Shown: one piece after another, positions 3,733 through 33,204 of the stretch | Layout of the letters: each line of letters starts with the position of its first letter | Position numbering within the stretch: the stretch's first letter is position 1 | Assembly: GCA_017935185.1 (NCBI GenBank) | Contig: JAGBIC010000031.1 | Coordinates: forward strand, 1-42,975 | Reading direction: 5' to 3' | DNA: 42,975 nucleotides | From: Alistipes sp. | Lineage (GTDB): Bacteria; Bacteroidota; Bacteroidia; Bacteroidales; Rikenellaceae | Notes under the pieces: generated by a model | What the model was told of the DNA's origin: nothing | The model's database searches: none | What the model saw: the letters and a program-made list of their open reading frames with translations, nothing else | Position numbers and translations under genes: made by a program

Positions 3733-4203
<471 letters not shown>

Positions 4204-4223
4204 TTATTAAATTTTACTTTTGT

Positions 4224-6089
4224 TTATTTATTTTCCTGATTAGTTAACGGCTCGAATGAACGGGTGGTCATCTCGAAACCAGCATTTTTATAAAACTCCA
4301 CAAAGGTGAGTCGCATGGGGTGAACAAACGACGATATCGACGACATGAAGAGGTTGATACCATGGCCCACAAGCAAGATGGCGGTAGCTCCCAAAATCTG
4401 GAATATTGTACCTACACCAAACTGCTCGATACCGCTATCAAGACCGGTAAGACCCAACGCCAACGAGTTAAACACCTGCGCCAGCACACCGCCCGACAAA
4501 CCAATGGCGAATAGACGGATATATGAAAGCACATCGCTCAACAAACTTGTGACATTATTATATGTATCCCACAAGCCGCTTGCAAAGTTTATAATGGGGT
4601 TGCGCTTGATATCGCTCAAGAACAACATCAACACCGCACCGACACCCAACGCTGCATAGAAAGCAGGTGATGAGGTAGTGAAGCCCGGAATAACCCATGC
4701 GGGATTGAGCATCTGAAGACCGCCCGCCAGACATGCCGACAATAGCACTATAAACCAGCCTAACTGTGCAAAGACAGTGGTAATACCGAAATAACGAGCC
4801 TTGAAGCAGATATTAAGCAACATTCCGAACAGAATCTGAACAACACCCAAAGCCAAAGCCAATGAGAAGAAGTCGTTCTGGAAATCGAGGAATGGTGACT
4901 CGGCAATGCTCTCATAGCCCATCATATCGGGGATACTCAAACCGAACAACGAGCCGGTATAGAAACCAAAGAGAGTAGTAGCTCCACCACACACCATCGT
5001 AAGGATTGAAGCCTGACGCATAGCCTTACCACCCTTGAGGAATAGTGCCAGACCCAACAAGAAGAGGATTGAGCCATATCCTGCATCGTTCAAACATATT
5101 GCGAAGAACAACATGTAGAAAGGTGCAAAGAAAGGAGTCAAATCCAATGTTCCATACTTGGGCAGGGCATACATGCCGCCAATAAGCTCGAAGAGTCGTG
5201 CGAAACGATTATTCTTCAGCTTAACAGGGGTATCATCCTCGGGAGTGGGATCGCTCTTAAGGTAGACAACACCGGGGAACTCCTCCAGCAACGCATCCAC
5301 CTCTGCAGACTTATCGCTCTCGGCCCATCCCTCCATAACAGCCAATGCACCGTCGGCAGCCATGGTGGCAGCACCGTTAATCTTCACCTTCTGCAAGCGA
5401 TACAACAACGACGAATACTCCTTCTCGATTTTATCAATGCTGGCTGCACAACGAGCGAAATCGCCATTGAGCTGCTGCAACTGCTGCTCGGCATCCTCAG
5501 CCTCGGCCTTTGCTGCACGATAGTCCATCGCAGGCGCTTTAATCTCCTGTGCATCAATCATAATATCGGCCTCGGGGCTGGCTATAACCACGAAATAGGC
5601 TTGAGTTGCAGTACGGCTAATCTCAACCACGGTGTGTTCTGCACCCCATGCCTCGACATTCTCATCGAAATCTGATGGAGAAGCCACGAAATAACGCAAC
5701 GCAATACCTCCCGACTGCAAAGCCTCACGCGATGCAACAGTAAACTCGCCCCACGGCTCAAGCTCTTCCGAGAGTTTCTCCATGCGGGCAACCTCGGCCA
5801 CCAATGCGGCACGACGCTGCTGCGCCTCAACATAAGCCTCATAAGCCTCCTCGCCCGACGCATAAGCCTCGGCCGACACATTCATATCCTCTGAAGCAGC
5901 AAAATCCTTCAAGAAATCGATAGCCTTGCGATAATAGTCTATGTCGCTCACAAGCTGACGATCCTGCTCCTGCGGTTCCCAGCCTGTTGTGGTGATATCC
6001 ACCAGCCCGAGATCTCGCAAACGAGCAACAAACTCATCACTCTGCGTTGCCTGCAACACAAAGTCGTAACGTGACATCTTTACTATCAT
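4224..6089 (-). CDS. atpI: V-type ATP synthase subunit I (membrane stator)
   Basis: Subunit I (the 116-kDa or a-type subunit) forms the half-channels beside the rotor ring and ties it to the peripheral stalk. The protein has 621 residues. About the first 300 are soluble and charged with coiled-coil segments. The rest is a membrane domain of about seven or eight helices, including LFFAICLNDAGYGSILFLLG and the conserved SYIRLFAIGLSGG, whose Arg525 should be the ion-channel arginine. The ATG at 6089 overlaps the atpD stop (ATGA), which implies translational coupling; an alternative start is the Met at residue 5. Length and order are typical for bacterial V/A-type enzymes. Confidence 0.95.
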   Translation of the reverse strand: MIVKMSRYDFVLQATQSDEFVARLRDLGLVDITTTGWEPQEQDRQLVSDIDYYRKAIDFLKDFAASEDMNVSAEAYASGEEAYEAYVEAQQRRAALVAEVARMEKLSEELEPWGEFTVASREALQSGGIALRYFVASPSDFDENVEAWGAEHTVVEISRTATQAYFVVIASPEADIMIDAQEIKAPAMDYRAAKAEAEDAEQQLQQLNGDFARCAASIDKIEKEYSSLLYRLQKVKINGAATMAADGALAVMEGWAESDKSAEVDALLEEFPGVVYLKSDPTPEDDTPVKLKNNRFARLFELIGGMYALPKYGTLDLTPFFAPFYMLFFAICLNDAGYGSILFLLGLALFLKGGKAMRQASILTMVCGGATTLFGFYTGSLFGLSIPDMMGYESIAESPFLDFQNDFFSLALALGVVQILFGMLLNICFKARYFGITTVFAQLGWFIVLLSACLAGGLQMLNPAWVIPGFTTSSPAFYAALGVGAVLMLFLSDIKRNPIINFASGLWDTYNNVTSLLSDVLSYIRLFAIGLSGGVLAQVFNSLALGLTGLDSGIEQFGVGTIFQILGATAILLVGHGINLFMSSISSFVHPMRLTFVEFYKNAGFEMTTRSFEPLTNQENK

Positions 6090-6694
6090 AACATAGACCC
6101 CTCCGCGGCCTGCTGCTGACGTGTTTTAACAATCTTCTGTGCCGATTTTGAAAGATTCTCCTCATCCTCCATAAATCGTTTGATCTTGCGAATGGCATCC
6201 TCGTAACCCGGAATCTGCACCTTCTCATAAAGGTTTACCTTCTGGGTGGTCTTACGGCGTGCATAATCGAGCAACTCCATTTTACGATTGTAGACCTCAC
6301 ACTCGATACCCAATCGTGCCATGCGCTTCAACAAATCGACTCCATCGGCATACCACACCGGCGACGAAAAGAGGTTGTAGGGCTTCTCTGCGAAGCGAAC
6401 CTCCTCAAGCACAGGTGTGCGTACTCCCGCAATCTTCTGCTCGGCAAGAACGACATCCTCAACACCCAACAGTGTAGAGTCGAACTCACCCCACAGAGCC
6501 ACCATATACTCGTACTCGGCGGCAAGAGCCTCCAGACGATTTTGGTAGTCGCGAGCCGTATCCTTCGCCTTTTTAACCTCGGAACGCAACGCCGACTCCT
6601 TACTCTTGATGGTAGGGAGTGCTGCTTTACGCATCTTCAGCTGCTTGCCGAGCTCTCCGAGCGAAGTTTTGTTATATTGAAATTTAATTGCCAT
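6086..6694 (-). CDS. atpD: V-type ATP synthase subunit D (central stalk)
   Basis: Subunit D is the long antiparallel coiled coil inside the A3B3 head that transmits rotation. The 202-residue protein fits: charged heptad-like helices at both ends (residues about 5-75 and 135-195) flank a less regular middle. It begins MAIKFQYNKTSLGELGKQL; the N-terminal pattern of Lys, Leu and Arg/Lys (LKMRKAALPTIKSKE) is typical of the family. It lies 23 bp after atpB and overlaps atpI by 4 bp. No separate subunit F gene follows, although D normally pairs with F at the base of the rotor. Confidence 0.93.
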   Translation of the reverse strand: MAIKFQYNKTSLGELGKQLKMRKAALPTIKSKESALRSEVKKAKDTARDYQNRLEALAAEYEYMVALWGEFDSTLLGVEDVVLAEQKIAGVRTPVLEEVRFAEKPYNLFSSPVWYADGVDLLKRMARLGIECEVYNRKMELLDYARRKTTQKVNLYEKVQIPGYEDAIRKIKRFMEDEENLSKSAQKIVKTRQQQAAEGSML

Positions 6695-6717
6695 AATAAG
6701 TTATTTTCTGTTAGCTG

Positions 6718-8037
6718 TTACGCCTTCCAGTACTTTGCAATAAGCTCGGCCTTAATGGCAACCTCCTCCTGTGAGAAGTACTCTGCAAAGAGAGTCCATG
6801 CGGTATCGAGCATCTGCTCAATCTCGATATTAACATCGATGGCAAGCAGTTTCTCTGAATAGTCGTGAGCAAACTTCAAAGCACGCTCGTCGTAATCCGA
6901 CAAATCGAAACCATTCTCCAACTTTGTCTTTGCATTGGCTGCATCGGCATACAGACGCACACAGGCATTCATCACCTGAGGATGATCCTCGCGGGTCTTC
7001 TTACCAATTACCAGCTGCTTCAGACGAGAGAGCGAACGGAAGGGGTCAACAATAACCTTACCTGTATCAGAATCGTTACGCAAGAAGAGCTGACCCTCGG
7101 TGATATAACCTGTGTTATCGGGGATAGCGTGAGTAATATCACCACCAGAAAGGGTTGTAACGGCGATAATGGTGATAGAACCGCCATTAGGCAACTGCAC
7201 GGCCTTCTCGTAGATCTTTGCCAAATCCGAATAGAGAGAGCCGGGCATAGAGTCCTTTGACGGAATCTGGTCCATACGGTTCGACACGATAGCGAGAGCA
7301 TCGGCATACAAGGTCATATCGGTCAAAAGCACCAAAACCTTCTCGCCCTTATCAACTGCGAAATACTCCGCAGCGGTCAATGCCATATCGGGAACCAACA
7401 GACGCTCAACGGGAGGATTCTCGGTTGTATTTACGAATGAAACGATACGATCCAAAGCACCTGCATTCTCGAATACCTGCTTGAAATAGAGGAAATCGTC
7501 GTTGGTTAGACCCATACCTCCCAAGATAATCTTGTCGGCCTTGGCACGCAAAGCCACATTCGCCATCACAGCGTTATAAGGCTGGTCGGGATCGGCAAAG
7601 AAGGGAATCTTCTGACCCGACACGATGGTATTGTTAAGGTCGATACCTGCAATACCTGTTGCAATAAGCTCTGAGGGCTGCAAACGGCGGAAAGGATTCA
7701 CTGTGGGGCCACCAATCTCGCGTGCCTCGCCTTCGATAGGCTCGCCACCCTCAAGCGGCTCACCATAAGCATTGAAGAAACGGCCTGCCAGATTATCCGA
7801 CACACGCAACTTTGGAGCCTCACCGTGGAAAACAACCTCTGAGTTGGTTGCCAAGCCCTCGGTACCGGCAAATACCTGCAAGGTAACATTCTCACCCATA
7901 ATTTTTACCACCTGCGCCAACTTGCCGCCAACGGTAGCAAGCTCGTCGTTACCAACACCTGTTGCACGCAATGTGATGGTGGCCTTGGTGATATTATCAA
8001 TCTTTGTATATACTTTTTGAAATGCTCGTGTTGTCAT
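6718..8037 (-). CDS. atpB: V-type ATP synthase subunit B (non-catalytic head)
   Basis: Subunit B alternates with A in the soluble head. It carries a nucleotide-fold domain but lacks the P-loop Gly-Lys-Thr, as expected; the region IVSGQKIPFFAD stands in its place. The 439-residue length is normal for bacterial and archaeal B subunits (about 430-465). Recognisable stretches include ARGYDRT-like replacement regions, LVPDMALTAAEYFAVDKG and the GYITEGQLFLRND motif near residue 310, followed by DPFRSLSRLKQL. It is 8 bp downstream of atpA, and both are surely co-transcribed. Confidence 0.96.
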   Translation of the reverse strand: MTTRAFQKVYTKIDNITKATITLRATGVGNDELATVGGKLAQVVKIMGENVTLQVFAGTEGLATNSEVVFHGEAPKLRVSDNLAGRFFNAYGEPLEGGEPIEGEAREIGGPTVNPFRRLQPSELIATGIAGIDLNNTIVSGQKIPFFADPDQPYNAVMANVALRAKADKIILGGMGLTNDDFLYFKQVFENAGALDRIVSFVNTTENPPVERLLVPDMALTAAEYFAVDKGEKVLVLLTDMTLYADALAIVSNRMDQIPSKDSMPGSLYSDLAKIYEKAVQLPNGGSITIIAVTTLSGGDITHAIPDNTGYITEGQLFLRNDSDTGKVIVDPFRSLSRLKQLVIGKKTREDHPQVMNACVRLYADAANAKTKLENGFDLSDYDERALKFAHDYSEKLLAIDVNIEIEQMLDTAWTLFAEYFSQEEVAIKAELIAKYWKA

Positions 8038-8045
8038 GGCTGCAC

Positions 8046-9803
8046 CTATTTTGTGAGTTGATTATTAACGGTCTGCTCAATCTGATTCTTATAGTCAAAG
8101 AACTTCTCGCTCTGCCACTCGGCATAGTTCATCTGACGGAAGAGGTTGATAAGACCCTTAAAGAATTTAGAACATGACTCGAAATCCGAGAAATCGAAAT
8201 CCTTGCGACATACATCCAACACCATCTCATACATCATCTTCTGACGCTCAATGGGGCAGTTGGCATCAATATCATCGAAGGCATCCTGCTGCAAAATAAC
8301 GAAGTCAAGAAGCTCCGACTTCCAGAAACGCTCGTGGTATGATACGGGAACACCGTCATCACCCAAAATGTTAATCTGGTCGTTAGCCTCTTTACCGCGC
8401 TGCACGATGGTCTTACCCTCATACACCTCGTTAACCCAACTCTTGCCGATATGCTCGTCAAGATACGAGGCAACCTCGGGATACTCCAAATACTTTGAAT
8501 AAGAGTCCAGCGGGTCGATAGCGGGATAACGCTTTGAATCGGCACGGCCCTGTGAAAGTGCATAGAAACAACGTGCAGCCTTCTTTGTAGACTCGGTAAC
8601 GGGCTCCTTCAGGTTACCACCCGCGGGTGATACTGTTCCGAGGAAAGTCACAGAACCTGTCTGGCCGTTATTAAGTTTAACCAAACCTGCACGAGAGTAG
8701 AAGTTAGAGATAATTGCCGAAAGGTCCATAGGGAAGGCATCCTGACCCGGGAGCTCCTCCAAACGGTTTGACATCTCACGCAAAGCCTGTGCCCAACGTG
8801 AAGTAGAGTCGGCCATAACCAACACCTTCAGACCCATAGCTCGATAATACTCTCCGATGGTCATACCGGTATATACCGATGCCTCACGAGCCGCAACGGG
8901 CATGTTTGAAGTGTTGCAGATGATGATAGTTCGCTCCATGAGCTTGTGGCCGGTACGAGAATCGATAAGTTCGGGGAACTCGGCGAAGATCTCCACCACC
9001 TCGTTTGCACGCTCACCACAAGCTACGATGATAATAACGTCGGCATCAGCCTGCTTTGAGATTGCATGCTGAAGCACTGTCTTACCTGCACCGAAAGGAC
9101 CGGGGATAAATCCTGTACCACCCTCAGCCAAAGGATTGAAGGTATCGATAGCTCGCACACCTGTCTCCATCACACGTGAAGGACGGGGTTTCTCGATATA
9201 GCTGCGAACAGCCTGCTTAACAGGCCACTTCTGCACCATGGTTACATTATACTCGTTGCCATCCTTATCGGCAAGCACAGCAACGGTGTCGGTTACCTTG
9301 TACTCACCTGCAGCAGCTACGCTCTTTACTGTGTAGTTACCCTGCATGATAAAGGGAACCATAATCTTGTGATCAACCCACTGCTCCTTTACCTGACCGA
9401 GCCAATCGGCAGCTGTCACCTTGTCACCAACATTGGCCAACGGAGTGAACTCCCAGGTCTTATCAAAATCAATGGGGTCGGTAATAGAACCACGATTGAT
9501 GAACAAACCATCCATCTTCTCCAAGTCGTTCTGCAAACCATCATAGTTGCGTGACAACAGACCCGGGGCAAGTGTAGCCTCCAACATGTGGCCCATAAAC
9601 TCTACCTTGTCGCCGATCTTAAGGCCACGGGTGCTATCATACACCTGAACATAGGCATCATCGCCAATAACCTTAATCACCTCGGCCATCATACGCGTAT
9701 CACCACAATATACGAAACATATCTCGTTCTGACCCACTGCGCCGTCGGCCTTCACGATAACGATGTTCGAGATGATACCGTTTACACGTCCTAAAGTTTT
9801 CAT
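8046..9803 (-). CDS. atpA: V-type ATP synthase subunit A (catalytic)
   Basis: This is the ATP-hydrolysing or -synthesising subunit of the head. In 585 residues it shows the N-terminal beta-barrel (1-75), the bulge domain characteristic of V/A-type A subunits (about 110-195), then the P-loop GPFGAGKT at 235-242. The catalytic glutamate region CGERANEVVEIFAEFPEL and the ADSTSRWAQALREMSNRLEELPG motif follow. The C-terminal domain is helical. The bulge and length distinguish it from F-type alpha or beta. It lies 11 bp after the DUF2764 gene. EC class 7.1.2.2 for proton pumps, or the sodium equivalent if the rotor reading is right. Confidence 0.97.
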   Translation of the reverse strand: MKTLGRVNGIISNIVIVKADGAVGQNEICFVYCGDTRMMAEVIKVIGDDAYVQVYDSTRGLKIGDKVEFMGHMLEATLAPGLLSRNYDGLQNDLEKMDGLFINRGSITDPIDFDKTWEFTPLANVGDKVTAADWLGQVKEQWVDHKIMVPFIMQGNYTVKSVAAAGEYKVTDTVAVLADKDGNEYNVTMVQKWPVKQAVRSYIEKPRPSRVMETGVRAIDTFNPLAEGGTGFIPGPFGAGKTVLQHAISKQADADVIIIVACGERANEVVEIFAEFPELIDSRTGHKLMERTIIICNTSNMPVAAREASVYTGMTIGEYYRAMGLKVLVMADSTSRWAQALREMSNRLEELPGQDAFPMDLSAIISNFYSRAGLVKLNNGQTGSVTFLGTVSPAGGNLKEPVTESTKKAARCFYALSQGRADSKRYPAIDPLDSYSKYLEYPEVASYLDEHIGKSWVNEVYEGKTIVQRGKEANDQINILGDDGVPVSYHERFWKSELLDFVILQQDAFDDIDANCPIERQKMMYEMVLDVCRKDFDFSDFESCSKFFKGLINLFRQMNYAEWQSEKFFDYKNQIEQTVNNQLTK

Positions 9804-9814
9804 TTACTTATATT

Positions 9815-10648
9815 TTATTGTTTATTTATCATATCCTTACCATCCAGCTCTGCCATAATACGCTCCAGCATCTCACGACCTCGCTTGGGATCCAACAAAC
9901 TCCATCGTGCCACGATATTTATCTTGGCAAGATACGACAGAATTGCATCGAGGTTAAAATAGTCAAACGCAGCCAATTCGCCCGCCTGCTCCCAACGTAT
10001 AAGGTCGATTTTATGCTCCTTCTCAACCATGTTGGTCTCGTCATTCACAGCCGAAATTACCGCATCGATATATGAGAGTTCGCCTCGCAGACCGAAATCG
10101 GCAGCCGACGAACGCTGCAACTGATCTACGATATCGCCACCGCCTACCAATGAGTCGGCCACCACACGATCGGTAGCTCGCGCCACAGCGGCTGCAGCCA
10201 CATTGCGCAGGGTGCGGTCAAAATCCGACCAGTTTCGCATATAGCGGCTCTTCGAGCGAGCGCACTCCTCATAATAGGCAGCCAGCAGAGCCTTCTCGAA
10301 ACCAATAGTCATATCAACCTTCTCGGCATCCTCTCCCTCGGGCTCGGCATAGGCTCTTACAACCGTTGCCATAGCCTCGGGCATGCTCTGTGGAGATACC
10401 AACTCATCGGCCAACGCCTCCTGGGGAATATTACCCAGAGGATTATACGCGGCACGACCTGCATGCTTTGCTATAAGGTTCTCGCAATCGTAATAACCGT
10501 ATAGTAGTCGCACCACGGCAGCATCACCCTCCGAAATCTGCTCAAGAATCTCGGCCACAATCTCGGTGGCATCAAAACCCTTGGTATCAGAATCGAGTGT
10601 ATACTCACGCAGTCCGGCAACTAACGAATAATAGTTTTTATCAAACAT
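9815..10648 (-). CDS. DUF2764 family protein of the V-type ATPase operon
   Basis: This 277-residue soluble protein (MFDKNYYSLVAGLREYTLD...) belongs to the family found between atpE and atpA in V-type ATPase operons of Bacteroidota, and in the same slot in Chlamydia and spirochaetes. It is largely helical and acidic, with YYEECARSKSRYMRNWSDFDRTLRN near 130-150. It has no signal peptide or membrane segment. In Thermus-type operons this position holds subunit C, the socket joining rotor ring to central stalk, so a subunit C role is a reasonable inference, supported by length and helical character rather than by recognisable sequence. It has 11-bp gaps on both sides. Confidence 0.85.
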   Translation of the reverse strand: MFDKNYYSLVAGLREYTLDSDTKGFDATEIVAEILEQISEGDAAVVRLLYGYYDCENLIAKHAGRAAYNPLGNIPQEALADELVSPQSMPEAMATVVRAYAEPEGEDAEKVDMTIGFEKALLAAYYEECARSKSRYMRNWSDFDRTLRNVAAAAVARATDRVVADSLVGGGDIVDQLQRSSAADFGLRGELSYIDAVISAVNDETNMVEKEHKIDLIRWEQAGELAAFDYFNLDAILSYLAKINIVARWSLLDPKRGREMLERIMAELDGKDMINKQ

Positions 10649-21606: not shown

Positions 21607-21614
21607 TATCTTTG
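21607..21614 (+). promoter_or_regulatory. Promoter of the plug-protein/coaD pair
   Basis: TATCTTTG matches the -7 consensus exactly, 30 bp before the ATG at 21645. An upstream in-frame TTG at 21612 overlaps this element and so cannot be the start. Confidence 0.65.
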
Positions 21615-21644
21615 AAGAAACAAACATTTAAAACATCCGCAAAT

Positions 21645-22331
21645 ATGAAACGATTTCTACTATTGATTGCCGCCACAAGTATTGCATTCAACGCCATGGC
21701 TCAAGATGAAAACCTATTCAACGGTCTATTGATTAACGGCGATTTAAAAGGAATCAAAGCACGTGTAGAGGTTAAACACCGCTCTATTCACACAAACACT
21801 AACGCACAGGGCAAATTCGGTTTCTACAACATCGAAGCATCCGATACCCTTATCATCAAAATCAAGAAAGAGGAGTATGTTGTTCCTGTTGCCGGCCGTA
21901 AAAGTATTAAGGTCGTTATCAACACCGAAACCCCAAGCTCTGATTTCGATGCAGCAGAGGATGATCAGCTTATCGCCTACGGACGTGACTTTGTAAAACA
22001 TCGTGATATAAGCAACGACCCCAACGTATTGCTGGGTGATGTTATGCGCCATTATGGCTACACCACTCTCGGAGCTGCTATACAAGGAAAAATCGCTGGT
22101 GTCTCATATGATCCCCAATCTGGTGCCATCACTATGCGCGGTAAAACATCGCTGAACCTGAATACTTCGGCTCTGATTATCTGCGAGGGTCAGGAGATGC
22201 GCTCGATTGATGACATTGACATCCAGCAGGTTGACCGTGTTGAGGCTCTGCAGGCTCCCAATGCATATGGCGTCAAGGGTGCAAATGGTGTATTGATCGT
22301 ATATTTGAAACGACGCACATCTGCAAAATAG
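21645..22331 (+). CDS. Exported SusC-like plug-domain protein without a beta-barrel
   Basis: From the ATG at 21645 the protein has 228 residues: a Sec signal peptide (1-20, AMAQ cleavage), a carboxypeptidase-regulatory-like beta domain (about 25-92), and a TonB-receptor plug (about 125-222). The plug motifs are clear: LGAAIQGKIAGV, ITMRGKTSLN and VDRVEALQAPNAYGVKGANGVLIV parallel the SusC stretch with Q-G-K-V-x-G-V, R-G-x-x-S-L and YG-x-x-GANGVI. The outer-membrane barrel of about 700 residues is absent and the stop is clean, with no barrel-like frame after it. It may be a soluble periplasmic partner, or a decoy plug. It is separated from coaD by 1 bp. Confidence 0.8.
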   Translation: MKRFLLLIAATSIAFNAMAQDENLFNGLLINGDLKGIKARVEVKHRSIHTNTNAQGKFGFYNIEASDTLIIKIKKEEYVVPVAGRKSIKVVINTETPSSDFDAAEDDQLIAYGRDFVKHRDISNDPNVLLGDVMRHYGYTTLGAAIQGKIAGVSYDPQSGAITMRGKTSLNLNTSALIICEGQEMRSIDDIDIQQVDRVEALQAPNAYGVKGANGVLIVYLKRRTSAK

Positions 22332-25030: not shown

Positions 25031-25043
25031 CAGATATATAGGC

Positions 25044-25081
25044 AAAAAAAGCGTGTTTGAAGTTTCAAACACGCTTTTTTT
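25044..25081. terminator. Bidirectional terminator between convergent genes
   Basis: A perfect 17-bp stem (25044-25060 and 25065-25081, core AGCGTGTTTGA) has A7 and T7 at its outer ends and a 4-nt loop. It lies 13 bp after the TlpA-like stop and 12 bp before the stop of the minus-strand oxidoreductase gene, so it serves both transcripts. Confidence 0.93.
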
Positions 25082-25093
25082 GTCATAATAAGA

Positions 25094-26473
25094 TTATTTC
25101 TGGGCAGCGCTCTTGGCCTTAGCCATATCGAGTGCCGATGTTGTTACATAATATTTTGCCAACATGTTAGGCACCTCCCAATCGGGCAGCTTGCCATCCT
25201 CAAGATACTGCAAGAAATTCTCGGTAACCTGACCGAAGTGAGCCTCATGGCCAACACGATAGCTGTCGGGAATCACAACCTGCCACATCTTATCGCTCTT
25301 CTTCTGCAGTTTCACGCCGGCATACTTCTCCTCAACCTTTGCAAAGGCTGTCGCCAACTCCTTCTCATAAGCAGCAGCATCAACACCCTCTACAAGCTCG
25401 ATAAAGAGCTCGGGCTTATAGTTCTGCTCCTTACCCTGCAAGATAATAAGATCGGCCTTTGAGCCCTTCATCTTCGAATAGTGGGTGTCGCCACCACCCT
25501 CGGGGAAAGTGTAATTCCAGATTACAGATACCTTAGCTGTGATGCCACGCAATTTGTAAAGGATATCGCCATTGCAATACACATTCAAAATATCATCCTT
25601 GACATCCTTCTGAAGATAGTCGGGATACTCATCAAAACCTGTCACCTGCTTGAACTCCGCACGGGTCATAGGGGTAGTCCAACGGTTGGCATCCAACAAC
25701 TCAACCTCCTTCTCGTAGTTGATAATTTCGCCAGGGAATGCCTCCCACTGTACCAAATCAACGAGGTGGGTTGTAACGTCAACAATACCCTCACCCTCTT
25801 GATTTACATCGAAGAACCATGCAGGACGCTTCAAAGGATTACCCGACACCTCCTTAAAGAAGTGGTGTACGCTCTCCTTGATGATTGCAGGATCCTCGGC
25901 CGAGCCTGGTAACTGCTCGCCATAAATTGCAGGAATGAGCGAGAGCTCACGCTGCAAGATGGTTGTAATCTCATGGCGCTCTGTCATAATATCATACAAC
26001 ATCACACCATTCTTCTGCGCGATATCGAAACACTCCTTCAACAGCTTGAAATTCTCGCTGGTAATAGCCATCGGCTTATCGGCCAAGACGTTGATACCTG
26101 CCTCAAGAGTCTTCTTGATATACTCGGTCTTCTTACCGTTGTTACCGGCAGTAACCATCACGTTACCACGCTTCTCGGCAATCATCTTCTCCATGAAATC
26201 ATCCCCGAGATACACATTCTCGTTCCACTGTGTGGGCGACTCGCTGCGGGTATTATAACCCTCGATACGCTTTAAGTGCTCTGCCACGTCATCACCTTCG
26301 GGAGCATACACATAAACCTCGTTGGAAACCTGCTCGTAAGAGTTCTTCTGTACCAACGCTGCATGGAAATGACCGGGGTCGAGTGTTACGATGGTCACCT
26401 TTGACTCCTTATCCGATGAACATGAGGTAAGCGCCATAAGCGATACTGTTACAAATAAAAAAAATCTCTTCAT
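25094..26473 (-). CDS. Gfo/Idh/MocA-like lipoprotein with altered Rossmann loop
   Basis: I choose the ATG at 26473 (MKRFFLFVTVSLMALTSCSS), giving 459 residues with a lipoprotein signal and lipidated Cys18; the frame extends 14 codons upstream but that would destroy the signal. The body follows Gfo/Idh/MocA oxidoreductases: beta-alpha Rossmann-like N-terminus, then DKP (132-134, usual EKP, Lys133), and a C-terminal alpha/beta domain with VDVTTHLVDLVQWEAFPG. The dinucleotide loop GxGxxG is not there; LDPGHFHAAL (31-40) stands in its place. It is the last gene of the six-gene operon, 88 bp behind uxuA across a hairpin. It may bind a carbohydrate without NAD, or receive cofactor in the periplasm. 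Confidence 0.85.
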   Translation of the reverse strand: MKRFFLFVTVSLMALTSCSSDKESKVTIVTLDPGHFHAALVQKNSYEQVSNEVYVYAPEGDDVAEHLKRIEGYNTRSESPTQWNENVYLGDDFMEKMIAEKRGNVMVTAGNNGKKTEYIKKTLEAGINVLADKPMAITSENFKLLKECFDIAQKNGVMLYDIMTERHEITTILQRELSLIPAIYGEQLPGSAEDPAIIKESVHHFFKEVSGNPLKRPAWFFDVNQEGEGIVDVTTHLVDLVQWEAFPGEIINYEKEVELLDANRWTTPMTRAEFKQVTGFDEYPDYLQKDVKDDILNVYCNGDILYKLRGITAKVSVIWNYTFPEGGGDTHYSKMKGSKADLIILQGKEQNYKPELFIELVEGVDAAAYEKELATAFAKVEEKYAGVKLQKKSDKMWQVVIPDSYRVGHEAHFGQVTENFLQYLEDGKLPDWEVPNMLAKYYVTTSALDMAKAKSAAQK

Positions 26474-26504
26474 TACTAAACAATTTTTACATCTAATATT
26501 ACCA

Positions 26505-26532
26505 ACGGGCGGCACCTGTGGGTACCACCCGT
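26505..26532 (-). other. Intercistronic RNA hairpin between uxuA and the lipoprotein gene
   Basis: In minus-strand RNA the 12-nt arms (26521-26532 and 26505-26516) pair fully, with two G-U wobbles, around a CACA loop. No U run follows, so it is not a standard terminator. It sits in an 88-bp gap within an otherwise tight operon and could stabilise or process the mRNA, setting a different level for the last gene. Confidence 0.6.
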
Positions 26533-26561
26533 CTACTATTGTTTTGTGGCTTATAGTCTAT

Positions 26562-27773
26562 TTAACATTTTTCAGCCATACTGCGCTCGATACCCATCTG
26601 CAGGCCATCAATCTCGGCCAGGCCCTTCAAGCGACCCACCAAAGGATATCCCGGATTGGCTTTACGTGTGTAGTCATCCAGCATCTTCAGTCCATGGTCG
26701 GGACGGAAAGGAAGTCTAATATCCTTACGACCCTCCTGAATACGACGCTGCTGCTCCTCAAGCAAAGCCTTCACAACAGCATACATATCGACACTGCCCT
26801 TCAAGTGGCCTGACTCATAGAAGCTACGCTCGGCCATAAAGGCTGTGTTACGCAAATGCACGAAATGGATACGTGGAGCGAACTCCTTAACCATAGCGAC
26901 CAGATCGTTGTCGGGACGTGTTGAGAGCGAGCCTGTACAGAAAGTGATACCATTTGCAATAGACTTATGCTCATTCATGAGCCAACGCAAATCGTCCACA
27001 GTACCTGCAATGCGAGGTAAGCCCAACAAGGGGAACGGAGGATCATCGGGATGGATACAGAGGTTCACACCTGCCTGCTCGGCAGTAGGCAACACATCGC
27101 GCAAGAACATCGACAAATGCTCACGCAGACGCTCCTTACCGACATCGGCATAGGTCTTAAGATAAGCAAGGAACTGCTGCTTATAGTCGCCGCCCTCGCC
27201 TACCACGCCATGGATAAAGGCTTGTGTTACGACGATAATATTGTGAGCAAGTTCCTCCTTCTGCTCCTCGGTAAGCCCTGCAACTATACGCTCGGCCTGC
27301 TCCAGCACCTCGGCAGGATAATCCTCGCTGGCGTTCTCACGCTTAAGGATATAGATATCGAAAGCCGCAAAGGTGGGATAATCAAAGAGCATAGACTCCG
27401 AGCCTGCCTGATTCTTGTAATGCAAATCGGTACGTGCCCAATCCAACACAGGCATGAAGTTATAGCACACGGTATCGATACCACACGCACCCAGATTACG
27501 CAACGACTCGCAATAGTTATCAATCAAACGCTGACGGTCGGCAGAACATATCTTGATACCCTCCGATACGGGAAGGCTCTCGACAACGCTCCAGCGCATA
27601 CCGTAACTCTCGATCTCGCGCTGCACGGAACGAATCTCATCAATTGACCACACCTCACCAGAAGGGATGTGGTGGAGAGATGTTACTACTCCCTCCACAC
27701 CCATCTGCTTCAAGTCGGCTAAAGTTACTGTGTCATTGCGGCCAAACCACCGCCATGTTTTTTCAAGTGCCAT
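26562..27773 (-). CDS. uxuA: Mannonate dehydratase UxuA
   Basis: UxuA removes water from D-mannonate to give 2-keto-3-deoxygluconate (EC 4.2.1.8), a cytoplasmic step in glucuronate breakdown. The 403-residue protein has the TIM-barrel metal-site motifs of the family: HPDDPP (241-246), CTGS (279-282) and HFVHLRNT (303-310). It opens with MALEKTWRWFGRNDTVTL as in other UxuA proteins, and has no signal peptide. It lies 2 bp after the SDR gene, which supports a paired fructuronate reductase/mannonate dehydratase function. No uxaC, kdgK or kdgA is in the window, so the rest of the pathway must be elsewhere. Confidence 0.97.
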   Translation of the reverse strand: MALEKTWRWFGRNDTVTLADLKQMGVEGVVTSLHHIPSGEVWSIDEIRSVQREIESYGMRWSVVESLPVSEGIKICSADRQRLIDNYCESLRNLGACGIDTVCYNFMPVLDWARTDLHYKNQAGSESMLFDYPTFAAFDIYILKRENASEDYPAEVLEQAERIVAGLTEEQKEELAHNIIVVTQAFIHGVVGEGGDYKQQFLAYLKTYADVGKERLREHLSMFLRDVLPTAEQAGVNLCIHPDDPPFPLLGLPRIAGTVDDLRWLMNEHKSIANGITFCTGSLSTRPDNDLVAMVKEFAPRIHFVHLRNTAFMAERSFYESGHLKGSVDMYAVVKALLEEQQRRIQEGRKDIRLPFRPDHGLKMLDDYTRKANPGYPLVGRLKGLAEIDGLQMGIERSMAEKC

Positions 27774-27775
27774 AA

Positions 27776-28582
27776 TTATACGCCGCCAAATGAGCTGAAT
27801 CCACCATCAACGGGGATAATAGCTCCGGTGATAAAGCTTGCATGCTCCGAGCAAAGGAAGTGCACCAGGCCGTTAAGCTCCTTGATGTCGCCAAAACGCT
27901 TCATGGGAGTACGGGCCAACACCTTACGGCTACGCTCGGTCAAAGAGCCGTCAGGGTTAAGCAACACTGCACGGTTCTGGTCGCCGATGAAGAAACCGGG
28001 GGCCAAGGCATTAACACGAATCTTCTCGCTGAACTTCAACGCCATCTCCATTGCCAACCACTGTGTAAAGATGCTAACACCACTCTTTGCCACTGAATAG
28101 CCGGGAACGCGGGTGATAGCTGAATATGTAGCCATCGATGACACGTTGATGATACTACCAGAGCCACCCTCGGCCATAGCCTTACCAAATACGAGGCAAG
28201 GATATACAGTACCGTTCATGTTAAGGTCGGTAACACGGTTGAAATCCTCAACCTTCATATCGAATACGGTCTGATCCTCACGCAATGTAGCACCGGGAAG
28301 GTTACCACCGGCAGCGTTTACAAGGATGTCTACCGAGCCCCATGTCTCTAGAAGTTTCTCGCGAGCGGCCTCAAGGCTTGCGATATCAAGCACGTTGCAC
28401 TGCAAACCGATTACCTCGCCCAATGGGCTCAACTCCTTTACTCTATTATCGAGCTGCTCCTGACGAATATCAAGAATAGCTACCTTAACACCATTCTCTA
28501 CGAGGCTGCGAGAGATGCTGCCTCCGAGCACGCCGCCACCACCGGTAACGACAGCTACTTTACCTTTCAAGTTAATATCCAT
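27776..28582 (-). CDS. SDR-family oxidoreductase, probable D-mannonate (fructuronate) oxidoreductase
   Basis: This is a classical short-chain dehydrogenase of 268 residues. It has TGGGGVLG (13-20) for NAD(P), NAAG (89-92), and the catalytic Ser149, Tyr162 and Lys166 (SSMATYS...GYSVAKSG). The C-terminus NALAPGFFIGDQNRAVLL resembles SDRs placed beside uxuA in Gram-positive and Bacteroidota genomes, which replace the unrelated UxuB by interconverting fructuronate and mannonate. Substrate is inferred from the 2-bp spacing to uxuA and that precedent. It has no signal peptide and acts in the cytoplasm. Confidence 0.88.
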   Translation of the reverse strand: MDINLKGKVAVVTGGGGVLGGSISRSLVENGVKVAILDIRQEQLDNRVKELSPLGEVIGLQCNVLDIASLEAAREKLLETWGSVDILVNAAGGNLPGATLREDQTVFDMKVEDFNRVTDLNMNGTVYPCLVFGKAMAEGGSGSIINVSSMATYSAITRVPGYSVAKSGVSIFTQWLAMEMALKFSEKIRVNALAPGFFIGDQNRAVLLNPDGSLTERSRKVLARTPMKRFGDIKELNGLVHFLCSEHASFITGAIIPVDGGFSSFGGV

Positions 28583-28587
28583 AATGG

Positions 28588-29484
28588 TTATTCGTTTTTA
28601 TATTGCTCAAACAAATTTGCGATACCTGCCTCGGTAGTGTTACCACCGTGAACAACAACACGATAGCGAAGCTTGATAGTCTCGCCCTTCTTCAAATTGG
28701 TTGCCTTATCATCCTCGGGCCAATACATCGGGGTGGGTGACATAAAGCCATAGTCACGAGTGAACCAAGGTGAAGGATACCAGCGGTTAGAGGGGTGCTG
28801 CATAATGGCTATACCCTCAACACCTGTCTTACGCTGACCATAGCAGTCAATCCATGCTGAACCTACACCAAAAGTACCCTTCTCGCCGGTCTTACCCTCA
28901 GAGTTGATCATAGTTCCGCCTTGTGTCACTGTCAAATCGGGATCTACACGAGCACTGAAAAGTGAGTGGTTGGTCTTCAAGATTGTAACATCGATAAGCA
29001 TCTCCATCTCAACATCGAAGTCGATGAAATAAAGATTCTTCGATGGCGATGAAATGGTAATCTTACGGCGGTCAATAATGGGAGCCGGAGCATCAGGGCG
29101 CTTCCAAATACACTCATCCTCAATAACAACTCTTTCACCTTTGGCTTCGATGATGCGGGCTCCCACTGATACGATTTGACCACGGTTCAAACCCTCCTGC
29201 CAATAGTTGCCGCCATTTACTCGGTCACAACCGAAGAAAAGCGAACTATGGTGGGGGTATGTACCATTACGCATTGATGTTGTTGAACCACCAGATATGG
29301 GGCCGTTTACAGGATAGAAGAAAGGATACTTCTCATCAGGCTGAAAACGGTAGCTGGTAAAGAACTGGTTACCAACATTTATATCAATACGATTACCTAT
29401 TTTTGTTGCAGATACCTGCTGCGGCTGTGCCATAACACCTACAGCCACAAAGAGGGCCAATGCACTCAATATAATCTTTTTCAT
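28588..29484 (-). CDS. Exported DUF6807 (PmoA-like) family protein, first paralog
   Basis: The 298-residue protein carries a Sec signal (1-20, GVMAQ cleavage) and so is periplasmic. It shows the family hallmark of a His pair before an aromatic and a Trp: YPHHSSLFFGCDRVNGGNYW (76-95, His78 and His79), followed by beta-rich sequence with GVEGIAIMQHPSNRWYPSPWFTRDYGFM near 230-255. Databases name this family after methane monooxygenase PmoA, but there is no real link to methane oxidation and the activity is unknown. It lies 5 bp upstream of the SDR gene. With the second paralog and two Gfo/Idh proteins it likely acts on the same periplasmic sugar. Confidence 0.85.
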   Translation of the reverse strand: MKKIILSALALFVAVGVMAQPQQVSATKIGNRIDINVGNQFFTSYRFQPDEKYPFFYPVNGPISGGSTTSMRNGTYPHHSSLFFGCDRVNGGNYWQEGLNRGQIVSVGARIIEAKGERVVIEDECIWKRPDAPAPIIDRRKITISSPSKNLYFIDFDVEMEMLIDVTILKTNHSLFSARVDPDLTVTQGGTMINSEGKTGEKGTFGVGSAWIDCYGQRKTGVEGIAIMQHPSNRWYPSPWFTRDYGFMSPTPMYWPEDDKATNLKKGETIKLRYRVVVHGGNTTEAGIANLFEQYKNE

Positions 29485-29512
29485 TTTAAATTTATTTTAA
29501 TATAGCACCTTA

Positions 29513-30742
29513 CTATTTAACCTTAACAATAGGGGGATTTGCAAAATCGTTCCACAAACGGTCGGCACGCTCCTTGGTCATCTCACCATCGTAAGAAAGC
29601 ACACGATAGCAGAGCTTATAGCGACCACCAGCCTCCAAAGTCCAATCCTCATTCTTGGTGGGACATAGGCCGATAAAAGTATCGCCACGACCACCATTTG
29701 CATTTTCGTCCCAGATACGAACCGGCTCGGGAGCCTTACGATTCTGCGGATGGCTCATGAAGAGCAAACCTGAACGACCATTATCGCACTGACCTGTAAC
29801 ATAGATCCAGCGAACATTTGTGCCATCAATCTGCTGACGAGTATTACCCTCTGAAGTGAACATCTCACTATTGTGACGAGTCCACTCCTGCGGGCCACGC
29901 CAACCGAAACCAGCATAACGATAGGCTCGGAGGATTACCGGCAGGTCGGTAGAGGGATGGAGCTCTGACTCAAAATCCCACAGGAAACCACCCTCGAGAT
30001 TGTATGCCTTCACATTCCAGGTCTCGTCCATGATGGCCTTCTCTCCCTCGGGGGTAAAGATGTAGTGATAGAGATGTGCCTTATAACCGGCGCAAATATC
30101 ACCCTGATAGGTACGGTCGTAACCACGAGCACGTACAGTACCTTTCATATCACGAAGATTCCACAAGTCGTACATCTTTCCATCATACTCAACGCGGGTC
30201 CATGGGTTCCAAATACCATAGTGGTGGTAATGGTCACGAGGCTGGATTCTTGTCAAGACATTACCCGACGGAGAGTATGCGGGGTGAATATAACCGCTAC
30301 GACGATAAGCAGGATGCACACCTTCGGGAGGGAATGTGGTAGTGTAGTTATACTGCAACACAGCCTTTCCATCCTTGCTCAACACCAATGCCTCGTTAGT
30401 GTCCTTTACAGTCATAGAACCACTTTGGTCTACGGTATCGGTACTGCTTGCTACAAAATAACGTGACGCTCCGGCAGGAGTATCACCATCCAAAACCCAG
30501 TACAACACAGGATTCTTGCCGTCGGCCCATACGAGTTGGCACTCAACGGGACGCTTTTCACCATCAACCTTCTCGAAAAGAACAACACCATTGTTCTTTG
30601 TAAGGTTCATTTTAGCAACGTCGGCAGCAACAATGCAATCCTTACGAGCAAAGTCGCCGGCGTTGACCTCGATCTTTATGGTCGAGGCCAACAACGACGT
30701 GAGTGAAAAGCAGAAGCATAATAGCAAAACTGCTTTTTTCAT
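29513..30742 (-). CDS. Exported DUF6807 (PmoA-like) family protein, second and longer paralog
   Basis: The protein has 409 residues with a Sec signal (about 1-20). An N-terminal beta-rich domain of about 110 residues is absent from the shorter paralog. The DUF6807-type core follows: PRDHYHHYGIWNPWTRVEYDG (169-188, His171, His173, His174), GFLWDFESELHPS, and GRSGLLFMSHPQNRKAPEPVRIWDENANGG near 320-350, which parallels the MQHPSNRW segment of the other paralog. The two are clearly related but diverged, suggesting different roles rather than recent duplication. It lies 13 bp after the Tat-type oxidoreductase gene. Activity is unknown. Confidence 0.82.
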   Translation of the reverse strand: MKKAVLLLCFCFSLTSLLASTIKIEVNAGDFARKDCIVAADVAKMNLTKNNGVVLFEKVDGEKRPVECQLVWADGKNPVLYWVLDGDTPAGASRYFVASSTDTVDQSGSMTVKDTNEALVLSKDGKAVLQYNYTTTFPPEGVHPAYRRSGYIHPAYSPSGNVLTRIQPRDHYHHYGIWNPWTRVEYDGKMYDLWNLRDMKGTVRARGYDRTYQGDICAGYKAHLYHYIFTPEGEKAIMDETWNVKAYNLEGGFLWDFESELHPSTDLPVILRAYRYAGFGWRGPQEWTRHNSEMFTSEGNTRQQIDGTNVRWIYVTGQCDNGRSGLLFMSHPQNRKAPEPVRIWDENANGGRGDTFIGLCPTKNEDWTLEAGGRYKLCYRVLSYDGEMTKERADRLWNDFANPPIVKVK

Positions 30743-30755
30743 AGTTAATTTAATT

Positions 30756-32132
30756 TTAGAAGTTATAGGGAGGTCTCATATGACGAGAAAGCATTGCATT
30801 TGCCTGGTCGTCATTCTTGAAACGCTCGGTAACGGGATCCCAGTAAAGCTTACGGTCGCTGAGTTTCATTGCAATGTGCTGCAACAAACATACAGAGCAT
30901 GAACGGTGAGCAACCTCAACGGGAGTGATAGGAGCCTGACGGGTGCGGATAGCCTCCAGCCAGTTACCATGGTGATCCTTGCTATTGTAGAGGTGGATTT
31001 CATTCTCGCCAATACCTGAAGTAAGGATCTTGGGGTCTGAAGCCTGCAAAGAACGCTGATTAGCAGCCTTAACAGGATCGCTGGCAGATGCCACGTAGTT
31101 ACCACGGCAAACGAAAATCCAACCCTCGGTACCCTTGAACAATACACCATTAGGCTTCTCTTTGCTATCAGTCATACCGCGAACGATTACACCGTTAGCA
31201 TAACGCATTTCGGTCTGGAAATCTGACATGTGAACATCCCACAAACCGCCTGTAGCAAATGTAGCGCGACCTGAAACCTCGACAGGACCAGAGTACTCGG
31301 TATCCATTGCCCAATGAGCGATATCGAAATGGTGGTGGCCCCAACCTGTAATCATACCGGCACCAAACTGCTCGCAACGCAACCAACCCGGACGAGCGTT
31401 AATATCCTCGGGGTGAACACGGTCACGAGTGTAGGGAACATAAGGAGTCTGACCCAACCACTTCTCGTAGTTGAAACCCTCGGGGATAGGCATCTCCTCG
31501 GCATTACCACCTGCGGGATCACCCGGCAGACGAACCTCGATCTCCTGAAGCTGACCGATACGACCATTGCGAACCAACTCACATGCGTAGCGGAACTGCT
31601 CCATAGAACGCTGCTGGCTACCAATCTGGAAGATACGACCTGATGCATGAACAGCGTTACTCAACTTACGACCCTCCTCAACTGTGAGTGAAGTGGGCTT
31701 CTGCATATAGATATCCTTACCTGCATTGGCAGCATCGATACCGATTTTTGCATGCCAGTGGTCGGGAGTACTGATCAATACGGCGTCAACATCCTTGTTT
31801 GCCAACAACTCCTCGTAGTGCTCGTAAGTCTTAACATCAACATCCGACTTACCATACTTCTTGGCATAATAACCCTCGATTGCACCCTTGGCAGCAACAA
31901 CACGCTTTGCATCCAAATCACAAGCTGCAATAATGCGAACATTGTCATATTTCCAAACGCCAGGCATATCGTGAGTACGTGAGATACGACCTGTACCGAT
32001 AGCACCGATATTGATTCGGTTAGAAGGTGCATTGGCACCAAAAACTGAAGCGGGAACAATTGTAGGAGCTACGAACAAACCTACGCCTGTTGCCAAAGAT
32101 CTCTTCAAAAAATCCTTTCTTGTCATTGTCAT
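30756..32132 (-). CDS. Exported Gfo/Idh/MocA oxidoreductase with Tat-like signal
   Basis: This 458-residue protein begins MTMTRKDFLKRSLATGVG, a twin-arginine-like signal in which the second Arg is Lys (RK), with a hydrophobic part and an AxA-like site near residue 33. The Rossmann loop GAIGTGRIS (43-51) is intact. Lys145 (QKP, usual EKP) and Asp270/His273 (GHHHFDIAHW) form the catalytic set of sugar-oxidising members. A Tat route allows export with NAD(P) already bound, as in glucose-fructose oxidoreductase. It is the first gene of the operon. The likely reaction is oxidation of a ring hydroxyl of a sugar or glycoside; substrate unknown. Confidence 0.9.
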   Translation of the reverse strand: MTMTRKDFLKRSLATGVGLFVAPTIVPASVFGANAPSNRINIGAIGTGRISRTHDMPGVWKYDNVRIIAACDLDAKRVVAAKGAIEGYYAKKYGKSDVDVKTYEHYEELLANKDVDAVLISTPDHWHAKIGIDAANAGKDIYMQKPTSLTVEEGRKLSNAVHASGRIFQIGSQQRSMEQFRYACELVRNGRIGQLQEIEVRLPGDPAGGNAEEMPIPEGFNYEKWLGQTPYVPYTRDRVHPEDINARPGWLRCEQFGAGMITGWGHHHFDIAHWAMDTEYSGPVEVSGRATFATGGLWDVHMSDFQTEMRYANGVIVRGMTDSKEKPNGVLFKGTEGWIFVCRGNYVASASDPVKAANQRSLQASDPKILTSGIGENEIHLYNSKDHHGNWLEAIRTRQAPITPVEVAHRSCSVCLLQHIAMKLSDRKLYWDPVTERFKNDDQANAMLSRHMRPPYNF

Positions 32133-32167
32133 AGTAGTAAGTTTTTAGGTTTATACTGCTTTTAATG

Positions 32168-32175
32168 CAAAGATA
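32168..32175 (-). promoter_or_regulatory. Promoter of the Gfo/Idh-DUF6807-uxuA operon
   Basis: TATCTTTG (minus strand) fits the -7 consensus, 35 bp before the operon's first ATG. The -33 region is weak, as expected for a promoter needing an activator; the AraC-type gene is the next gene upstream. The rest of 32133-32331 is very AT-rich. Confidence 0.65.
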
Positions 32176-32331
32176 AAGATATAAAAAATCTCTAACGCAT
32201 ACTATTTTTGCAAATGTTTATACTTTATTGAGCAAATTAAGCTATGACAAAGGCCCAAAACCTCTAACTTTTTTTTTAAAACTTTTTATTATATAATAAG
32301 GTAAATATTACACCAAATGCAAAAGTCTCCC

Positions 32332-33204
32332 CTATCGTGTAAACTGCTTACGATACTCGGTGGGCGTAAGGCCCGTATAGCGTTTGAAAATTCTGTTGAA
32401 ATGTGCCGTAGAGTTAAACCCGCTTTCGAGACACACCTGCACAACATCCATGGTACTCTCTACCAATAATTTACACGCATGTCCAATACGCAGGTTCATT
32501 ATATATTCCTGAAAAGTCTTACCGAAACTCATCTTAAAATAGCGGCTGAACGACGAGGTATTCATCGCCACAAGCGAAGCCATGGTGGTCAAATCGATAT
32601 TCTCTCTGAAATGCGCTGTTGCATAAGTAAGAATCTTCTCCATGCGCTGATTCATGGCTGTCGACGACGATTTATGGAAAAGCTGTGTACCCAGCAGCTT
32701 GCGATCCTCGATTTCGGCCATAACATCCAACAGTTGTAACAGACCAATGATACGCATCTTGCCGCTATAACTCGGCATCTTCTCGATAAGCTTTACAACC
32801 TCTCGATTCACAGCAGGAGGGAAATAAATTCCGCGAGCAGACTCCTCAAGCAGAACTTTCACATGCGACAAATCGGCGTAATTGTTAATGGCATGCGCCA
32901 TAAAGTTCTCCTCGAATTGTATGATAGTGCCCTTCACACGCCCCTTTGCAACACCATTACGATAATCGTCGGCACTACGCAAATAGTGAGGCACACCATG
33001 CCCGACAACTATCACATCTCCCGGGCCAAACGGCCCCATACTATCGGCAACAAACATGTCGCCAACGCTCTCTTTGACATGTATAATCTCAAATTCATTG
33101 TGCAGATGCCAATTATACGTAAACATATCGTAGTCATAATGTCTTGCGATAATCGGCATGTCGGCAGAAATAGGCAGCTGCTCATGTATAAATCTGTTGC
33201 TCAT
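32332..33204 (-). CDS. AraC-family transcriptional regulator
   Basis: This 290-residue protein has a cupin-type sensor domain at the N-terminus (HLHNEFEIIHV near 33-43, GDVIVVGHGVPHYL near 62-75) and two helix-turn-helix motifs at the C-terminus. The latter run from ENIDLTTMASLVAMNTSSFSRYFKMSFGKTFQEYI to CLESGFNSTAHFNRIFKRYTGLTPTEYRK, the latter being the AraC signature. Cupin-AraC proteins usually sense a sugar and activate a nearby operon. It lies directly upstream of, and in the same direction as, the Gfo/Idh-uxuA operon, which has its own promoter. Control of that operon is a strong but untested inference. Confidence 0.95.
   Translation of the reverse strand: MSNRFIHEQLPISADMPIIARHYDYDMFTYNWHLHNEFEIIHVKESVGDMFVADSMGPFGPGDVIVVGHGVPHYLRSADDYRNGVAKGRVKGTIIQFEENFMAHAINNYADLSHVKVLLEESARGIYFPPAVNREVVKLIEKMPSYSGKMRIIGLLQLLDVMAEIEDRKLLGTQLFHKSSSTAMNQRMEKILTYATAHFRENIDLTTMASLVAMNTSSFSRYFKMSFGKTFQEYIMNLRIGHACKLLVESTMDVVQVCLESGFNSTAHFNRIFKRYTGLTPTEYRKQFTR

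Follow-up and report, generated by a model that had tools for sequence, protein, structure and literature searches.

Known 3-keto-glycoside systems and the Alistipes locus

BT2158, a periplasmic glycoside 3-dehydrogenase of Bacteroides, is reported to be required for several disaccharides (PMC11300592) and to be dispensable for raffinose-family sugars (PMC11501099). DUF1080 proteins are described as known or proposed 3-keto-glycoside hydrolases (PMC9007349), and oxidation, elimination, hydration and reduction by four clustered enzymes provide a further precedent (PMC10628242). Here we analyze a 42,975-nucleotide stretch of DNA from Alistipes sp. (contig JAGBIC010000031.1), called the window in its full length, which carries a seven-gene run combining exported Gfo/Idh-type redox proteins and two proteins of family DUF6807 (PF14100) with two cytoplasmic hexuronate enzymes. 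We regard it as an even call whether this run is a laterally gained cassette that would free D-glucuronate, possibly as its 4-O-methyl ether, from a periplasmic glucuronide without a hydrolase and feed it into the 2-keto-3-deoxygluconate (KDG) pathway. The system itself is real, conserved and biologically coherent; its enzymology we infer by analogy. The type of route is known; DUF6807 in the role of its lyase or hydratase would be new.

All seven genes lie on the minus strand, each with a family match, which bears out the gene set and order of the original prediction:

32332..33204, minus strand: AraC-family regulator gene, which may control the run (PF12833, 87.9 bits, cut-off 33.6)
30756..32132, minus strand: exported Gfo/Idh/MocA oxidoreductase with a twin-arginine translocation (Tat)-like signal (GFO_IDH_MocA domains), proposed to oxidize C3 and perhaps to catalyze the back-reduction
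29513..30742, minus strand: long DUF6807 protein, made up of an N-terminal domain and DUF6807, with a Sec-like signal (PF14100, 223.1 bits, cut-off 27), proposed beta-eliminase or hydratase
28588..29484, minus strand: short DUF6807 protein with a Sec-like signal (PF14100, 203.3 bits, cut-off 27), proposed to catalyze the second step, hydration or isomerization
27776..28582, minus strand: cytoplasmic short-chain dehydrogenase/reductase (SDR) of the D-mannonate oxidoreductase (fructuronate reductase) type (NF006132, 351.7 bits, cut-off 281)
26562..27773, minus strand: uxuA, D-mannonate dehydratase (TIGR00695 equivalog, 487.5 bits, cut-off 199.55; PDB 4eac, E 3.7e-135)
25094..26473, minus strand: Gfo/Idh-like lipoprotein of family PF16490 (437.9 bits, cut-off 27), proposed 3-keto reductase or auxiliary protein

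The araC gene is separated from the Gfo/Idh gene by 199 nt; the gaps that follow, down to the lipoprotein gene, measure 13, 28, 5, 2 and 88 nt. The window genes submitted to Pfam include neither a SusC/SusD pair nor a glycosidase, and no DUF1080, sugar-phosphate-isomerase-type or CGE lyase/hydratase domain exceeded the Pfam cut-off in the seven operon proteins. Because no known lyase or hydratase family reaches its cut-off in the operon, the DUF6807 proteins become candidates for these steps.

The locus resembles Bacteroides BT2156-BT2160, where a periplasmic dehydrogenase acts first and the 3-keto-glycoside is then cleaved (PMC11300592 and PMC9007349). It differs in that the window Gfo/Idh enzyme stays far under the cut-off of the BT2158 model, DUF6807 stands in place of DUF1080 (BT2157), and SDR and UxuA have joined. 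P2B11 (PDB 8tdi) is a Gfo/Idh relative named in the PDB as glucuronide-3-dehydrogenase, but at only 32.8 bits it is no close relative of the window enzyme; its parent paper reportedly came from the Withers group, in Nature in 2024. The AtOGE/AtHYD and PuCGE/levoglucosan operons also co-encode oxidation, elimination, hydration and reduction; there, the eliminases either resemble sugar-phosphate isomerases or are a heterodimeric Mn enzyme, whereas the window has DUF6807 proteins that look exported (PMC10628242). With the Uxu hexuronate pathway the window shares a UxuA equivalog and a mannonate-oxidoreductase SDR, but their genes sit inside an exported redox cassette and not beside UxaC. Rhizobial thuAB, reportedly associated with 3-keto derivatives of trehalose and other sugars, places ThuA beside a dehydrogenase, and in relatives of our locus ThuA replaces the short DUF6807 protein; the window itself, by contrast, lacks ThuA. 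ThuB we take to be a Gfo/Idh enzyme.

Export of four of the proteins, judged by eye from their N-termini, stands as originally proposed. For the Tat-type signal the agreement is partial: the N-terminus of the Gfo/Idh enzyme is Tat-like, and the corresponding position reads R-R in seven and K-R in one of nine aligned members, but the window protein has R-K (TRKDFLK). Both DUF6807 proteins have Sec-like N-termini, and the PF16490 protein carries a lipobox Cys (C18) that is invariant in the alignment; its most likely start is the ATG at 26473, which accommodates this Cys and replaces a GTG at 26515. The description of this protein as a Gfo/Idh-like lipoprotein holds for its family and for its Lys-Pro and D-x-x-x-H-like motifs (invariant DKP and DxTTH), but the canonical GxGxxG loop is missing. 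Since an invariant PGHFHA occupies the place of that loop, use of nicotinamide adenine dinucleotide and a redox role are uncertain. The lipoprotein gives a near-full-length match to the solved structure 4oo3 (E 2.9e-226).

The two cytoplasmic proteins had been called hexuronate enzymes, and this assignment is confirmed: because both exceed their model cut-offs, we regard them as the enzymes leading from fructuronate to mannonate and on to KDG. The SDR orthologue of Parabacteroides acidifaciens (90% identity) scores 358.9 bits on NF006132, and UxuA has an AP_endonuc_2 match under the Pfam cut-off (29.8 of 31.1 bits).

In the route that we propose, the Tat-like exported Gfo/Idh enzyme would oxidize the glycuronosyl C3 with a bound nicotinamide, and the long DUF6807 protein would eliminate the aglycone across C1-C2. 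The enone would then be hydrated or isomerized by the short DUF6807 protein, or by ThuA in other lineages, and the 3-keto-uronate reduced to glucuronate by the Gfo/Idh enzyme or the PF16490 lipoprotein. After uptake, flux would pass through UxaC (encoded elsewhere in the genome), the SDR, UxuA, KDG kinase and 2-keto-3-deoxy-6-phosphogluconate (KDPG) aldolase, all identified by family models or similarity. The four exported proteins would match the oxidation, elimination, hydration and reduction steps of other 3-keto-glycoside systems, and oxidation followed by cleavage, as the original prediction had it, would be the underlying chemistry.

The Gfo/Idh-DUF6807 core and its hexuronate neighbors

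We defined the core as the Gfo/Idh enzyme plus the long DUF6807 protein and compared 121 loci: the best 80 of 519 loci from named genomes, 20 stretches, 20 of 47 phylum-profile places, and the window. The core is present in 88 of them, which leaves 80 non-redundant core loci once seven duplicates and the window are set aside; many contigs are short, and all neighbor counts are lower bounds. The long DUF6807 protein occurs in 23 of 393 Bacteroidales genomes and, by profile search, in 39 of 395 genomes phylum-wide, our own genome included in both. Among genome contigs, the long protein used alone as query recovered no relative, whereas an alignment query did.

Conservation of gene order had been put forward as a check of the original prediction, and its outcome is favorable. 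The exact six-gene order was found in five further Bacteroidales loci: in P. acidifaciens (L051, truncated within the last gene where the contig stops), a Tannerella metagenome-assembled genome (L055), Massilibacteroides (L061, from M. vaginae, and L111) and Dysgonomonas (L064). The core is scattered through Bacteroidota and has apparently moved laterally. Near the 80 core loci we counted PF16490 60 times, SusC 22 times, and SusD and a URO-D-like gene 15 times each. The argument formerly drawn from missing SusC/D and transporter genes fails for the system as a whole, given these SusC and SusD counts and the tripartite ATP-independent periplasmic (TRAP) transporter genes that adjoin two core loci; their absence is peculiar to the window copy. 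In some relatives the core is flanked by glycosidase genes or by one for a glucuronoyl esterase, so that hydrolases may act in concert with the route.

The coupling to hexuronate catabolism, inferred earlier from the window alone, recurs across these loci. Of the 80 core loci (1.22 Mb), 16 have UxuA nearby and 17 the SDR; 13 have both, and 20 have at least one of the two. Neither gene occurs in any of the 20 control windows, each 20 kb long (0.40 Mb in all), taken from ten genomes that carry the long DUF6807 protein. An ordinary uxuA/SDR pair that landed by chance in an unrelated exported Gfo/Idh cluster would be in keeping with the absence of the pair from the examined stretch in most core loci, but the 13 joint occurrences differ from one another in gene order and strand, with none in the controls, and we find such a chance neighborhood barely credible.

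The hexuronate label changes no fewer than 15 times on a Gfo/Idh tree (a quick build with open forks; 80 rows including the window but not L057, which is too short). Individual loci add further genes of the pathway. In one genome (L224/L184), the set UxuA-DctM-DctQ-DctP-aldolase-PfkB-PfkB-UxaC, which includes TRAP genes, is divergent from SusC-SusD-glucuronoyl esterase (PF22244)-DUF6807::ThuA-Gfo/Idh-PF16490. SusCD, the core, the SDR and a TRAP transporter stand together in L191. In L021, a 3.5-kb contig without a Gfo/Idh gene and outside the 80 loci, UxaC-KdgK-DUF6807-ThuA are arranged head to tail. At the genome level, UxaC is encoded by 21 of the 23 Bacteroidales genomes that have the long DUF6807 protein versus 105 of 370 that lack it (Fisher p 1.7e-9, not kinship-corrected). 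Within fucose-isomerase strata the association persists (Mantel-Haenszel odds ratio 23; p 0.002 and 0.005).

Taken together, a link of the core to hexuronates, on the glucuronate branch, is well supported by gene context. The branch is suggested by the recurrence of UxuA and a mannonate oxidoreductase, in a comparison that covered these genes and not the galacturonate-branch UxaA and UxaB. Glucuronoyl esterases usually target the 4-O-methyl-glucuronoyl ester of xylan and lignin. With such an esterase gene in L184, the 4-O-methyl-glucuronate of xylan or lignin is a plausible but weakly supported substrate.

The exported proteins might instead interconvert free sugar acids before uptake, for example by epimerizing or deoxygenating a rare uronate or aldonate via a keto form, with no glycosidic bond cut. 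The SDR and UxuA do act on free acids, the window genes given to Pfam include no glycosidase, and Gfo/Idh enzymes often oxidize or epimerize free polyols and sugar acids. However, SusC/D beside the core (SusD in 15 of the 80 loci) and the glucuronoyl esterase of L184 point to oligomeric or esterified substrates, and the ThuA family is reportedly implicated in the use of 3-keto-disaccharides (Ampomah 2013), so that we consider interconversion of free acids distinctly improbable.

Several observations weigh against release of glucuronate as the function of the core. UxuA and SDR are both missing from the examined stretch in 60 of 80 core loci; the core may therefore serve several glycosides. UxaC, KdgA and KduI were found in none of the 80 core stretches as first delimited, and the UxaC side of L224 became visible only after six loci had been lengthened while the controls kept their original length; the other five lengthened loci yielded no further hexuronate gene (L225 repeats a uxuA already counted). 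Only one of the 80 core loci (L184) contains a glucuronoyl esterase gene. The window Gfo/Idh enzyme scores 124.3 bits against NF058561, the model for BT2158-type glycoside 3-dehydrogenases, whose cut-off is 750. Fucose isomerase, used as a control, shows enrichment too (16 of 23 genomes that encode the long DUF6807 protein versus 77 of 370 that do not, p 1.8e-6), and part of the UxaC signal is therefore due to genome size or lifestyle.

The 60 loci without UxuA or SDR would suit a general exported 3-oxidation in which the core acts on assorted glycosides and uxuA and the SDR gene have joined only where the sugar is a uronate. The neighbors do vary (GH78, GH43, GH9-like, DUF2264, URO-D-like), and BT2158 is required for several disaccharides (PMC11300592). 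Such a general role is less easily reconciled with the repeated changes of the hexuronate label on the tree, with the UxaC, kinase or TRAP genes that join the core in other lineages, and with the presence of UxaC in nearly all Bacteroidales genomes that encode the long DUF6807 protein (21 of 23, as above). We hold it to be rather unlikely.

Two further genes near the core deserve mention. A URO-D/MtaA-CmuA-like methyltransferase gene (L036, L037, L042, L043, L097 and others; 15 of 80) lies in most cases immediately ahead of the gene for the long DUF6807 protein; it may serve to demethylate a methylated sugar, as one idea. A DUF2264 gene adjoins the core at L033:11955-14096 and L124:5460-7595, the two copies being 81% identical; we considered it as a hint of a glucuronidase, but the term DUF2264 does not occur in the literature searched. 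A connection through GH154 was considered and dropped.

Short DUF6807 and ThuA beside the long DUF6807 protein

The long DUF6807 protein has invariant residues D170-H171-x-H173-H174, H226, E240 and R282 in the alignment. Long and short forms are homologous (hhalign 97.3%); when eight sequences of both forms are aligned together, a His-His pair and other residues are invariant. PDB profile searches gave only a chance-level match for the long form (E 0.039, a U3 snoRNA-associated protein) and no match up to E 5 for the short form, and we therefore claim no fold for DUF6807. The N-terminal domain of the long protein may be that of DUF4861 (hhalign probability 72%, against a two-sequence profile). 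A DUF4861 gene with this N-terminal similarity is located near UxaC and a KduI-family gene in L181 (11786-12907).

Three features of the second DUF6807 position are new in this analysis: exclusivity of short DUF6807 and ThuA, repeated switching between them, and alternative fusions of each to the long form. Short DUF6807 is present in 27, ThuA (counted at 38% identity or more) in 23, both in none and neither in 30 of the 80 core loci (Fisher p 1.2e-5, not kinship-corrected). Weaker ThuA relatives occur in seven of the 30 loci with neither protein and in none of the short-DUF6807 loci. On the Gfo/Idh tree the state switches at least seven times: ThuA loci L079 and L080 are nested in a short-DUF6807 group, and short-DUF6807 loci L185 and L190 in a ThuA group. 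An independent-pairs test of this swap was not significant, with too few pairs, which tells against the proposal as well.

Long DUF6807::ThuA fusions were found in nine loci (L103, L108, L122, L184, L187, L193, L194, L197, L201), two of which, L193 and L194, come from one genus. In L102 the long form is fused to short DUF6807, and L104 carries a DUF6807::PF16490 fusion. Both domains were confirmed by Pfam in ten of the 11 fusions, L194 not having been submitted. The nine ThuA fusions are unlikely to be draft-assembly artefacts; those of L102 and L104 are single cases. Mutual exclusion and fusion of each partner to the long protein suggest a shared slot, in which ThuA and short DUF6807 probably perform the same step and may be functional equivalents.

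A wider generalization would make DUF6807 a new class of 3-keto-glycuronide lyases or hydratases, its short form interchangeable with ThuA, within a complete, exported and hydrolase-free route to (4-O-methyl-)glucuronate from xylan- or lignin-type glucuronides that is spread across Bacteroidota and passes between genera as a cassette; we advance it tentatively, as possible but doubtful. It offers a concrete, testable function for DUF6807. If true, beta-glucuronidases would be joined by a second chemistry that removes glucuronate from conjugates of plant or host origin, with relevance to fiber use and possibly to drug glucuronides.

In the literature searched, which excluded most subscription papers, DUF6807/PF14100 appears only as a bare number or under a methane-oxygenase label, and 3-keto-glucuronide, glucuronide 3-dehydrogenase and PF16490 are not mentioned. 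In a metatranscriptome study of a lake, PF14100 was used as the model for PmoA (PMC10291797). This legacy name, "PmoA / methane oxygenase", is misleading, and such PmoA counts probably record sugar catabolism. On the Lac161 cosmid, a Verrucomicrobia clone, a PF14100 gene is described in a putative operon with newly found beta-galactosidase genes (PMC5342196), another glycoside context for the family.

Genomic setting and expression signals of the cassette

The window is an entire contig of a 1.8-Mb genome that is 75% complete, which limits statements of absence for this genome. The long DUF6807 protein had no match in any of 36 same-genus genomes. In the window the cassette is an insert between tlpA and ruvC. 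The four relatives whose RuvC is closest (G016, G014, G015 and G001) keep the order coaD-lpxD-tlpA-ruvC but have no cassette between the last two genes; this gap holds one or two other genes in three of them and none in G016. A binning artefact was rejected, the flanking genes being native to the genus and conserved in order. Because the flanks are native and relatives lack the cassette, it was gained or lost as a unit. Its nearest kin are found in P. acidifaciens (57-90% identity per protein), which makes lateral gain more likely than loss. A search of a plasmid collection returned one distant long-form homologue (Hymenobacter, 40%) and no plasmid source.

Another contig of the same genome (C47) encodes UxaC (658.1 bits, equivalog cut-off 387) and KDPG aldolase (371.9 bits, equivalog cut-off 275), together with a KDG-kinase-like gene recognized by similarity (best model 511 bits, under its cut-off of 700), a major facilitator superfamily transporter (best model under cut-off) and a KduI-family protein. 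The window uxuA is the only one found in this incomplete genome; a different uxuA, 48-52% identical, is present in 12 of 24 same-genus genomes searched.

Two signals border the structural genes:

32168..32175, minus strand: Bacteroidales-type -7 box TATCTTTG, 43 nt upstream of the Gfo/Idh gene, the first structural gene
25043..25082, no strand assigned: perfect 19-bp inverted repeat with A/T-rich flanks, a probable bidirectional terminator, which closes the run and parts the PF16490 gene from the convergent tlpA at the operon boundary

The -7 box was recognized by what we take to be the Bacteroidales consensus. This TAnnTTTG box was not seen in two of 12 upstream regions compared and is placed elsewhere in several others, and scans with sigma-70 and terminator patterns gave no excess over shuffled sequence. 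A direct repeat, AAAA[TC]CTCTAAC (at 32185 and 32257), was considered as an AraC operator; it is absent from all 11 related upstream regions and is not claimed. The araC gene is co-directional with the operon in the window and divergent in P. acidifaciens, Massilibacteroides and Dysgonomonas, a difference that is due to local inversion. An AraC homologue lies near 13 of the 80 core loci, and control of the operon by AraC is putative.

Elsewhere in the window, positions 3733-10648 hold V-type ATPase genes and a DUF2764 gene, and positions 21612-22331 encode a short protein whose sole Pfam match is a TonB-receptor plug domain.

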